Assembly (NCBI RefSeq): GCF_900142675.1
Contig: NZ_FRBS01000002.1
Location: 434,001-498,000, forward strand
Direction: 5' to 3'
DNA from: Shouchella rhizosphaerae
GTDB taxonomy: Bacteria > Bacillota > Bacilli > Bacillales > Bacillaceae_D
Length of the DNA stretch: 64,000 bases
A program made the position numbers and the translations under genes. Under the pieces are notes generated by a model that was not told where the DNA came from, made no database searches, and saw only the letters and a list, made by a program, of their open reading frames with translations. Shown piece by piece: positions 14,746 to 17,182 of this stretch (positions within the stretch are counted from its first letter, which is position 1; each line of letters begins with the position of its first letter).

Positions 14746-14917
14746 GTGTGAAAAAGAGGACGTGTTCGATAGAATCAAGTTGACATTTACGGAGAGGGGA
14801 GAACACGTTCAAGTTAATATCGTTCTATGTAAAGGCGAGAGAAGCTTAATTCACTATTATTCTACAAAGTGCGACAAAAACAGCTAATTGAATGATGTTG
14901 GGAAATATCCAAATTCC

Positions 14918-14946
14918 TTACAATTCGAGAAAATTCCATTTATAAT
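14918..14946 (+). promoter_or_regulatory. Sigma-A promoter of the rap-phr operon
   Basis: TTACAA, 17-base spacer, perfect TATAAT, ending 32 bases before the rap start. Confidence 0.7.
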
Positions 14947-14978: not shown

Positions 14979-16079
14979 ATGTCTACGGTAGTGCAGGCGG
15001 AAAAAGCGGGGGCGAAAATCGTTGACTGGTATAGTTGCATTATTTCGCGGTCAATCGACCAAGCGATTCTCCTTAAAGAACAAGCCAGCGCCCTCGTAAA
15101 AAACATGGAGCCAAATGACAAGATTTTAGCGTACTATTCATTAGTCGAATTTCGCCATGAAATGCTGCTCAGACAAAACGCAGGAATGGAAGAAGAAGAA
15201 CGGTTTTCGAAAATTGAACCTATCCTAGAGAATACAGTCGACCATTTACTCAAGTACCTCTATTATTTCATCAGTGGGCAAAATGAATACATCAATGAAC
15301 GTTACAAATCCGCGATCAAACTGTTTAGGAAAGCAGAGCGTTTATTAGAGTATGTCGATGACGATGCAGAAGAGGCTGAATTTTATTATTACGCAGGAGC
15401 CGTTTGTTACCGACTAAACCAATACCCTTTTGCGACCTCATATGTTGAGCAAGCTAAAACGATCTTTGACAGTCTTGGGTATGTGGATAAGGGTTTGAAC
15501 TGCCAAATCATAATTGCTGCAACTAACTCCGAAGTCGGAAAGTATGAAAAAGCGGATGAAATCTTAAAAAATGCTTTACAGCAAGCAGAAATGCACCTTG
15601 AAACGAAAGCGCTCATTCTTCGTACCCTCGGACTAAATGCAATACGGAAAAGGGAGTGGGAAGAGGCAGAACATTATTTCAAGTCCGCCTTAGCGATTAA
15701 GGAACACCGCCAATCACCAGTAAGCATGAAAAGCCAATACAATTTGGCCAACGTCTTATTTCGTTTACAGAGGGATTTGGAAGCGCGGGAGTTTTTTAAA
15801 AAAGCGGAAGTAGGCATTCTTTATTACAGAAATACAGAATATTCGGCTCGGTCTCTAGTCACAAAAGGGCTTTATATTGAAAATGGAAACTTGGCATTAG
15901 TCAATAAGGGCATCGATCTTCTAAGAGAACACTCTTTAGAGTTTGAAATTGCTGAAGTGGCTGAAGAGACGTCTGCTTACCTTGAAAAAGCAGGAAAATC
16001 ACAAGAAGCATTGAAGTATATGAAAGTCGCTTACGAAGCAAAGCTAAATCAAAATGCACTGGGAGTTGATCAAGCATGA
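14979..16079 (+). CDS. rap: Rap family response regulator phosphatase/inhibitor
   Basis: A 366-residue TPR protein of the Rap family, the usual length. Residues 1-70 form the three-helix bundle (KIVDWYSCIISRSIDQA and LAYYSLVEFRHEML) that contacts Spo0F or ComA in known members; the rest is six to seven TPR repeats (YYYAGAVCYRLNQYPFATSY, LRTLGLNAIRKREWEEAEHY, SQYNLANVLFRLQRDLEARE and others) that bind the Phr pentapeptide. The ATG at 14979 follows GGGGTGAT. It overlaps the first phr gene by four bases, as is normal for rap-phr pairs. Which response regulator it targets is unknown. Confidence 0.9.
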   Translation: MSTVVQAEKAGAKIVDWYSCIISRSIDQAILLKEQASALVKNMEPNDKILAYYSLVEFRHEMLLRQNAGMEEEERFSKIEPILENTVDHLLKYLYYFISGQNEYINERYKSAIKLFRKAERLLEYVDDDAEEAEFYYYAGAVCYRLNQYPFATSYVEQAKTIFDSLGYVDKGLNCQIIIAATNSEVGKYEKADEILKNALQQAEMHLETKALILRTLGLNAIRKREWEEAEHYFKSALAIKEHRQSPVSMKSQYNLANVLFRLQRDLEAREFFKKAEVGILYYRNTEYSARSLVTKGLYIENGNLALVNKGIDLLREHSLEFEIAEVAEETSAYLEKAGKSQEALKYMKVAYEAKLNQNALGVDQA

Positions 16080-16192
16080 AAAAACTTCTCTTGACTTTAG
16101 TGTTGGTACTTGCCTTTACTGGATTTCAAGGTCTTGCACAGTCAAATGGGAACCCAATTCAACCACATGATAAAACAGACATTGCAAGTTAA
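16076..16192 (+). CDS. phr: Phr signalling peptide precursor 1
   Basis: A 38-residue pre-Phr peptide starting MKKLLLTLVLVLAFTGFQ, a cleavable signal peptide with likely cleavage after GLAQ or LAQS. The exported tail is SNGNPIQPHDKTDIAS. The ATG overlaps the rap TGA as ATGA. Known Phr peptides are cut to five or six residues, re-imported by Opp and inhibit their Rap. Across the three copies here, QP[HD]DK is the best conserved tail segment and a candidate core, unlike the basic ARNQT/ERGMT type of B. subtilis. Confidence 0.85.
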   Translation: MKKLLLTLVLVLAFTGFQGLAQSNGNPIQPHDKTDIAS

Positions 16193-16294
16193 TTTTTTTA
16201 GCAAGAGAAAGCCTAAATAGCAAAAGCCTGAAGATGCCTGTAGATTGACCGTTTACAACCAAGAAAACCAAAAATCAATGGGGGTCGATCAGGA

Positions 16295-16414
16295 GTGAAA
16301 AAACTTCTTTTAACTTTAGTGGTGGTACTAGCATTTACAGGAACCCAAGGTCTAGCGCAGACAAGTGATGGGAATGTATTCCAACCACATGACAAAGCGG
16401 ATGGTGTTAGTTGA
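16295..16414 (+). CDS. phr: Phr signalling peptide precursor 2
   Basis: A 39-residue paralogue of the first Phr precursor with a GTG start; GGGGGT lies upstream at 16280 and AGGA adjoins the start. The signal peptide MKKLLLTLVVVLAFTG is nearly identical, and the exported tail reads TSDGNVFQPHDKADGVS. It lies 219 bases after copy 1 in a repeated unit that includes the upstream spacer. It has no promoter of its own, so it depends on rap read-through. Confidence 0.8.
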   Translation: MKKLLLTLVVVLAFTGTQGLAQTSDGNVFQPHDKADGVS

Positions 16415-16506
16415 TTTTTTAGAGCAAGTGGAAGCCTAAATTAGCAAATACCTGAAGATACCAGTAGATTGAAGCAAAAGCATAAATCAATGGGGGTCGA
16501 TCAGGA

Positions 16507-16626
16507 GTGAAAAAACTTCTTTTAACTTTAGTGATAGTATTTGCATTTACTGGATTTCAAAGCCTGACGCAAACAAGTGATGGAAATGTATTCCAACCAG
16601 ATGATAAAACGGATGGTGCTAGTTAA
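16507..16626 (+). CDS. phr: Phr signalling peptide precursor 3
   Basis: Third tandem copy, 39 residues, GTG start in the same context as copy 2. Signal peptide MKKLLLTLVIVFAFTGFQ; exported tail TSDGNVFQPDDKTDGAS. It differs from copy 2 by a few substitutions, including His to Asp in the conserved QPHDK segment, so the three peptides could signal differently. It is followed by the operon terminator at 16700-16730. Confidence 0.8.
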   Translation: MKKLLLTLVIVFAFTGFQSLTQTSDGNVFQPDDKTDGAS

Positions 16627-16699: not shown

Positions 16700-16730
16700 A
16701 ACAGATGGCCGGATAGCCATCTGTTTTTTT
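16700..16730 (+). terminator. Terminator of the rap-phr operon
   Basis: Stem ACAGATGGC/GCCATCTGT with a six-base loop, then seven T. The same hairpin follows hag on the other strand at 17146-17175. Confidence 0.85.
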
Positions 16731-16812: not shown

Positions 16813-17007
16813 TTGGAAAGTAAAGAAATAAAGGTTAAAAATCATTGGGGAAAATTAACTGTTTGTTTGTTAATCGCTATTGCCATTACATTACCCGTAC
16901 AAATTTGGGTTGATAGCGGATGGAAAATGGCGTACTTTTTACCCGTATTCATGACTGCTTGGGGAATATTCTATACATGGGCTGGAAAGGAAGAAAATAA
17001 GAAATAA
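16813..17007 (+). CDS. Small two-helix membrane protein, unknown function
   Basis: A 64-residue protein with a TTG start preceded by AGGAGG at seven bases. A charged N-terminus (MESKEIKVKNHWGK) is followed by two hydrophobic helices, about 15-32 and 38-56, and a Lys/Glu-rich tail. I do not recognise the family. It stands between the true flagellin gene and the duplicated flagellin tail, in AT-rich sequence, so it may have arrived with the rearrangement. Confidence 0.6.
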   Translation: MESKEIKVKNHWGKLTVCLLIAIAITLPVQIWVDSGWKMAYFLPVFMTAWGIFYTWAGKEENKK

Positions 17008-17145: not shown

Positions 17146-17175
17146 AAAAAACAGATGGCCGGATAGCCATCTGTT
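17146..17175 (-). terminator. Flagellin gene terminator
   Basis: Stem 17151-17159/17166-17174 followed on the minus strand by six T, eight bases after the hag stop. Confidence 0.85.
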
Positions 17176-17182
17176 TTTTGTA

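Follow-up and report, generated by a model that had tools for sequence, protein, structure and literature searches.

A rap gene and three tandem phr genes

The locus described here lies in the window, by which we mean the whole 64,000-nucleotide stretch of DNA that was analyzed from the genome of Shouchella rhizosphaerae (4.24 Mb in 13 contigs). It consists of a rap gene (14979..16079) that is followed by three phr genes (copy 1, 16076..16192; copy 2, 16295..16414; copy 3, 16507..16626), and all features mentioned in the following are located on the forward (+) strand. The first phr gene encodes 38 amino acids and starts with an ATG that overlaps the rap stop codon (ATGA), and the second and third encode 39 amino acids each and start with GTG. 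Their C-terminal tails are QPHDKTDIAS, QPHDKADGVS and QPDDKTDGAS, exactly as read in the preliminary description of the locus.

The rap reading frame is intact from the ATG at 14979 to the stop codon at 16079 and encodes a receptor of 366 amino acids, in which the three-helix bundle (RapH_N) and the C-terminal TPR domain of Rap proteins in the RRNPPA family are both present. It matches the RapH_N profile with 88.7 bits (cut-off 27; E 2.5e-25), the TPR_12 and TPR_2 models score above their cut-offs, and the PDB entry for B. subtilis RapJ is matched over residues 5-333 (E 2.7e-30). The acidic anchor for the basic second residue of Phr peptides (D194 in RapF, D192 in RapJ) is found as E185. The asparagine that grips the peptide backbone (N227 in RapF, N225 in RapJ), described in PMC3601957 as ‘strictly conserved’ in the family, is replaced by T216 and occurs in 15 of 75 unique Shouchella Raps; given that the other features are present and that this change is clade-wide, we still assign the protein to the Rap family. 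Likewise, the residue corresponding to position 47 of RapH, given as Gln or Glu for the Raps that act as Spo0F phosphatases (PMC3035606), is D47, so that the window Rap lacks the hallmark of this subset; among the 75 Shouchella Raps, this position is Asp in 60, Glu in 14 and Lys in one. As a catalytically dead RapH is reported to block Spo0F nonetheless (PMC3035606), inhibition without catalysis is possible for a Rap with D47.

The phr genes are part of a repeat family with three copies of 149 nt, spaced by 219 and 212 nt, in which the outer copies are 64% and 87% identical to the middle copy, used as the reference. The ribosome-binding site of the first phr gene sits within the end of rap, where it is encoded by the codons for the C-terminal LGVDQ, and copies of this rap 3' end precede the second (16264..16297) and the third phr gene (16476..16509), with GGGGG Shine-Dalgarno motifs at 16280-16284 and 16492-16496, respectively. 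When paired with what we take to be the anti-Shine-Dalgarno sequence, the 22 nt upstream of the three starts yield -14.3, -15.4 and -15.4 kcal/mol, compared to a mean of -4.1 (sd 3.0; 5th percentile -9.6) for 583 22-mers of the locus. It appears that a unit comprising the rap 3' end, phr and a spacer was duplicated in tandem; because this unit includes the rap end, copies 2 and 3 have sites as strong as that of copy 1, and each, having a ribosome-binding site of its own, would be translatable without being coupled to rap.

No Pfam or NCBIfam model matches any of the three Phr reading frames above its cut-off, and they are consequently identified as Phr by their position, their leader, the motif and the covariation with Rap. 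All three are short reading frames right after rap with an export leader, as Phr precursors are, the export being putative and judged from hydropathy peaks of 3.2-3.3 (own script). The evolutionary record of these frames is informative: in three non-overlapping pairs (window copy 1 with the first S. clausii gene, window copy 3 with the second, and window copy 2 with the single gene of a sister species, G001), nonsynonymous differences are seen at 15 of 262 sites and synonymous ones at 22 of 78 (Fisher p 3.6e-7), with a weaker signal for copy 2 against copy 3 alone (Ka 0.12, Ks 0.42, p 0.034). The sole indel among the phr frames is 3 nt long, and the spacers bear others. This pattern excludes the non-coding drift that the preliminary description had allowed for, and it indicates that the copies are real genes under purifying selection rather than chance frames. 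Reading frames, repeat family and selection together confirm that one rap is followed by three complete, translatable tandem phr genes with slightly different signals, as had been proposed.

A contrary view would be that recombination at the rap end produced copies 2 and 3 as by-products, which are now little expressed and being lost. Their GTG starts and the loss of copies in orthologs would fit such a scenario, and so would the Thr that replaces Ala at the likely signal-peptidase site (judged by eye) of copy 3 and its S. clausii ortholog. We consider it improbable, however, in view of the purifying selection, the strong Shine-Dalgarno sites, the intact frames and the retention of the copy 3 lineage in three species.

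Transcription likely ends downstream of the array at a hairpin with a T-run (16700..16729). This hairpin is also found after the phr genes of S. clausii and G001, and a scan gave three terminator-like sites where 2.2 are expected from shuffled sequences. Upstream of rap, a pattern scan yielded a promoter-like CTTACA-18-TATAAT (14917..14946), which we treat as a candidate only, there being four promoter-like sites against 6.1 expected in shuffles. A ComA box search at the locus gave one match with three mismatches (1.47 expected), and a sigma-H-like pattern gave eight matches (9.95 expected). As none of these three counts exceeds expectation, we do not propose a regulator for the cassette. The 30-nt terminator hairpin and the sequence following it occur twice between 16700 and 17210 (hairpins at 16700-16729 and 17150-17179), enclosing a reading frame of 64 amino acids (16813-17007) that G001 also has; in S. 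clausii, a single hairpin is joined directly to the flagellin end.

The signals and how the receptor reads them

A scan of Shouchella genomes returned Rap matches in 11 of 13, and 95 Rap-match loci were examined downstream for phr genes, with Phr tails assigned by eye from the listings and tandem loci represented by the rap-adjacent copy. Several paralogs in the genus repeat the signal within one reading frame (DKADGR, DKGDIT, GKHDFH, GKHEFT), and these intragenic repeats set the bounds of the signal, from D/G/S/E-K onward. In this frame, the window signals are D1 K2 [TA]3 D4 [IG]5 [AV]6 S7, each with a net charge of -1, and the basic residue at position 2 that is typical near the C-terminus of Phr precursors is K2 in all three copies. 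After the last Lys, the tails in the genus usually have five (41 tails) or four further residues (18 tails). A Lys-bearing signal was found for 63 of the 68 unique Shouchella Raps with an assigned Phr, with Asp or Glu at position 4 in 54 of the 63, a count in which the script for choosing the signal Lys leans towards the rule in a few multi-Lys tails, since among several Lys it favors one that is followed by an acidic residue at the second position downstream.

These counts change how the peptides are to be seen. The preliminary description had called them unusual and acidic; they are acidic, but with their K2-x-[DE]4 pattern they are of the ordinary type for Shouchella. Nor do they stand apart from the basic peptides of B. 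subtilis in the way that had been suggested, since the same basic residue is described at position 2 of the latter (PMC3601957, PMC3601965). The proposed core QP[HD]DK was rejected because intragenic repeats elsewhere begin the signal at D/G/S/E-K, and it is K2-x-[DE]4 that is conserved instead. The difference between PHDK and PDDK concerns the residue just before D1, which probably lies outside the mature signal, and the differences that matter among the copies are T/A at position 3, I/G at position 5 and A/V at position 6. In DKTD[IG]AS, position 5 alone distinguishes copy 1 from copy 3.

On the side of the receptor, the Raps of 80 of the 95 loci (340-400 amino acids, no internal stop), corresponding to 75 unique proteins, were aligned to RapJ, and seven without Phr (L005, L043, L044, L048, L069, L086, L008) were left out of the covariation analysis. 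The first four of these seven are orthologous raps in four species with no phr-like reading frame behind any of them, possibly an orphan receptor. Three residues of the window Rap align with published peptide contacts: E185 (codon 15531..15533) with RapJ D192 and RapF D194, the former of which is described to form a salt bridge with Phr residue 2 (PMC3601965); K251 (15729..15731) with RapJ Q260 and RapF Q263, the latter being located in the cleft for Phr position 4 (PMC3601957); and A141 (15399..15401) with RapJ E147 and RapF E149 in the cleft for position 5, where G001 has Trp.

In the column of RapJ D192, 67 of the 75 Shouchella Raps have Glu, three have Asp and five have Ile. Glu or Asp is found in all 63 Raps with Lys2 signals and Ile in the five without, although this column is tied with ten others, as the five Lys-less signals form a single clade. 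The members of this clade (L059, L062, L063, L064 and L065, with signals of the form [VT][HQL]P[IVH][GA]G[HY]) have apparently lost both partners of the salt bridge jointly. Outside the genus, Asp occupies the column in 17 of 17 loci with Arg2 signals (read by eye) and Glu in nine of ten with Lys2 signals, L128 being the exception; three loci with Gln at signal position 2 (L132, L135, L141) keep the Glu.

The column of RapJ Q260 ranks first of 362 columns for association with an acidic residue at position 4. It is Lys in 54 of 54 Raps with such signals versus three of nine others (p 1.2e-6) and, after clustering at 85% identity, in 34 of 34 versus one of seven (p 1.6e-6); these Fisher tests ignore phylogeny, for which the ranking of all columns and the clustering serve as controls. 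The three Shouchella Raps that keep the Lys with a non-acidic signal all have KPGTAT, and in L052, whose two signals differ at position 4 (KTGYV, KTDYG), the Rap has Cys in place of Lys. For ten Lys2 signals outside the genus, Lys or Arg accompanies an acidic position 4 in five of six cases versus none of four non-acidic ones (one-sided p 0.024, or 0.071 when Lys alone is counted), the exception being L136, which is acidic with Gln260. Three loci from another family (L170, L171 and L172, in G092, G128 and G047) combine Gly in the anchor column with Lys260 and have signals with EHGEIRD, which lack Lys2 and have an acidic fourth residue. In the literature that we searched, an acidic Phr position 4 was nowhere linked to a Lys in the receptor. 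Given K2 and D4 in each of the three window peptides and E185 and K251 in the Rap, all three peptides are predicted to bind this receptor.

Orthologous loci and the age of the array

The orthologs of the window Rap in S. clausii AKU0647 (L014) and S. tritolerans (L015) are 92% and 91% identical to it. Copy-number variation of the phr unit in related genomes, which had been suggested as something to look for, is indeed seen, with three genes in the window, two each in S. clausii and S. tritolerans, and one in G001. In a tree of six phr sequences (120 nt), lineage A (window copy 1 and the first S. clausii gene) is split from the others with a support of 100, lineage B unites window copy 2 with the G001 gene (support 89), and lineage C unites window copy 3 with the second S. 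clausii gene (support 71). Moreover, Ks is 1.02 between copies 1 and 2, compared to 0.31 for copy 1 between species. There look to be two signal classes, I5 (copy 1, DKTDIA[S]) and G5 (copy 2, DKADGV[S], and copy 3, DKTDGA[S]), in three lineages that are older than the species split, and both classes are also kept in S. clausii and S. tritolerans. In the simplest reading, the three-gene array predates these species, and S. clausii and S. tritolerans have since lost lineage B, and G001 lineages A and C.

For G001, the import of diverged alleles, as opposed to loss from an old three-gene array, is a serious alternative. This species is the closer relative of the window species, as judged from the gene upstream of rap (Ks 0.18 to G001, 0.45 to S. 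clausii), but Ks rises from this 0.18 to 0.40-0.51 in rap codons 141-365, and the divergence between the two DNAs peaks over rap and phr. At the same time, G001 and the window agree at the rap end and in the terminator flank, and the phr gene of G001 groups with copy 2 in the tree; the two histories could also be combined. As an explanation for the differences between the orthologous loci at large, we consider import possible, if somewhat doubtful. At locus L018, gerAB was not found in the compared stretch, and the hag comparison spans 105 codons.

The receptors themselves have diverged unevenly. Residues 1-70 are identical across the four orthologs, and the nonsynonymous differences concentrate in codons 141-240, with 27.0 of 35.0 in the comparison to S. 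clausii (0 of 5000 shuffles as high) and 18.3 of 34.3 in that to G001 (P 0.0002). Since synonymous differences are also raised there (P 0.04 and 0.03, respectively) and Ka/Ks does not exceed 0.33, recombination explains this peak as well as selection does. Positive selection on rap as a whole was rejected, with Ka/Ks below 1 in every part of the gene and 0.33 at most. In the column for the position-5 cleft, Ala is found in the window and in S. clausii, which have I5 and G5 signals, and Trp in G001, which has G5 only; this is a single case.

Multiplied phr genes and the reading of the locus

Tandem phr genes are found in nine of the 78 full-length Shouchella Rap loci (78 being the number of distinct loci, because the handles L014 and L015 refer to the same positions as L016 and L017): three genes in the window locus, L001, and two each in L007, L016, L017, L020, L052, L065, L068 and L080. 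The tree of Raps requires at least five changes to tandem phr, in a count made without L020. Outside the genus, they were found in one of 50 Rap loci (L128), 36 of which had any phr-like reading frame near rap, some of them doubtful; the enrichment in Shouchella (9/78 versus 1/50, with slightly different scan criteria) is not significant (p 0.087). Intragenic repeats are a second way of multiplying the signal, and their copy number, too, changes between species: the single phr of L003 in the window genome (G000:C11) has three DKGDIT units in its reading frame, and repeats of this type (L046, L047, L045) have four units in G010 and G011 and six in G001, one of them DQGDIT. Six GKHEFT units are found in one phr frame of G006 (L066).

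One phr per rap, the arrangement regarded as usual in the preliminary description, holds as a rule, but duplications of whole phr genes have been published. They are reported in the B. subtilis group, with mention of further ones in other Bacilli, among them duplications in B. clausii drawn in figure S11A together with six B. clausii Raps (Even-Tov, 2016; PMC5199041), and a later study counts 71 Raps with two phr genes, 58 of which encode different signals, differing at position 5 or 6 (Felipe-Ruiz, 2022; PMC9765709). We found no three-gene phr array in the literature searched, figure S11A of PMC5199041 being covered by its text and legend, and a search for B. clausii or Shouchella clausii with Rap and Phr returned nothing. 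The arrangement is an expanded form of a known kind, a phr duplication, and its receptor comes from a clade that reads peptides with a different pocket.

Among characterized systems, NprR of the B. cereus group shows distant similarity to the window Rap (E 2.2e-8) and has a DNA-binding domain, whereas the window Rap matches none in the domain search; the NprX signal, SKPDIVG, has the same K2-x-D4-I5 pattern as the window signals. The B. subtilis cassettes RapJ-PhrC, RapF-PhrF and RapG-PhrG share with the window an overlapping phr gene after rap, a receptor of RapH_N and TPR domains, and a basic residue at signal position 2 opposite an acidic one in the receptor (PMC3601957, PMC3601965), a pair that in RapG-PhrG is described as the same Glu/Lys version (PMC3601957). 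They differ from it in having one phr gene instead of three, and in the window an acidic position 4 is accompanied by a receptor Lys, the anchor Asn is Thr and the catalytic Gln47 is Asp. The published two-phr loci resemble the window in their whole-gene duplication and diverged signals, as far as they are described in PMC5199041 and PMC9765709, while the window has three genes, lineages traceable over four species and identified partner positions on the receptor. Finally, the propeptides of Rap3T and Rap105 likewise offer several slightly different signals per Rap; in the account of two signals within one propeptide given by Felipe-Ruiz (2024; PMC11343458), additional cuts are needed to release them, unlike the C-terminal signals from separate genes in the window.

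We consider it probable that the locus is a Rap-Phr quorum-sensing cassette with a tandem-duplicated unit, which provides three signals in two classes for one receptor. Starting from what the sequences themselves establish (the genes and the selection on them, their ribosome-binding sites, the lineages and the covariation), the pre-peptides would be exported by a Sec-type leader and trimmed to about six or seven residues starting at Asp-Lys, i.e. to DKTDIA(S), DKADGV(S) and DKTDGA(S). They would then re-enter the cytoplasm, where all three may bind the single Rap through contacts of Lys2 with E185 and of Asp4 with K251, and this binding would turn off the action of Rap on a putative response regulator target. 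The one receptor would have two classes of signal, I5 from copy 1 and G5 from the other two copies, and the array would preserve three old phr lineages, some of which were pruned in relatives; this would fit the published model of specificity change by duplication and subsequent divergence.

The preliminary description, whose interpretation is partly supported overall, had left the choice between separate signals and a gene-dosage effect. The I5/G5 split favors separate signals, and dosage may still play a part given that copies 2 and 3 share the G5 class; the sequence does not decide between the two. If only dosage were at work, the three genes would supply more of one signal to the receptor, and the I5/G5 and T/A differences would be tolerated drift. 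Such a role would be in line with the conservation of K2 and D4, the positions covarying with the receptor, in all three copies, and with the phage receptor Rap3T, which is reported to respond alike to two slightly different peptides with affinities about fourfold apart (PMC11343458). We nevertheless regard it as rather unlikely, as both classes are retained in S. clausii and S. tritolerans, as the one ortholog with a single phr gene has the G5 class alone, together with a Trp at the position-5 pocket, and as most of the published two-phr Raps (58 of 71) are listed with different signals, at position 5 or 6 (PMC9765709).

Returning to three signals in two classes, we tentatively suggest, with more doubt than for the cassette itself, that the locus might be a living intermediate in a change of specificity. 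One receptor would here be addressed by two words, I5 and G5, from three old lineages, with subsets of them in relatives, including a G5-only species with a Trp-filled position-5 pocket; the receptor would be a member of a Rap subfamily whose pocket is charge-swapped (E185-K2, K251-D4, R215 nearby) and which does without the supposedly invariant backbone Asn. A shift in the specificity of a receptor for its signal requires changes in both partners and is therefore difficult to observe while under way; in the present case, the number of signal genes is three, two or one depending on the sister species, and the differences between receptors cluster in the peptide-binding part. Furthermore, the Lys251-Asp4 pairing predicted from covariation may offer a simple rule for matching orphan Raps with Phr peptides in alkaliphilic Bacillaceae.

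It is also conceivable that some of the copies address other receptors, with the G5 peptides acting on a Rap paralog or serving as antagonists or decoys for the window Rap. The genome contains at least eight other Raps or near-full matches, most with Glu and Lys at the two pocket positions, and B. subtilis PhrC is described to act on RapB, RapC and RapJ (PMC3601965). Yet none of the paralogs in this genome comes with its own DKxDG signal, and Raps are reported to usually prefer their own peptide (PMC11343458), which makes this scenario improbable in our view. Among the further Rap-related loci of the window genome, L010 (G000:C9:65503-66416) is a degraded rap with several stops, behind which an intact phr encodes the signal KEKVEIGG, of the type found in L049 and L050, and L012 (G000:C5:515945-516217) is a C-terminal rap fragment that is followed by a phr-like reading frame with EKVDIT.
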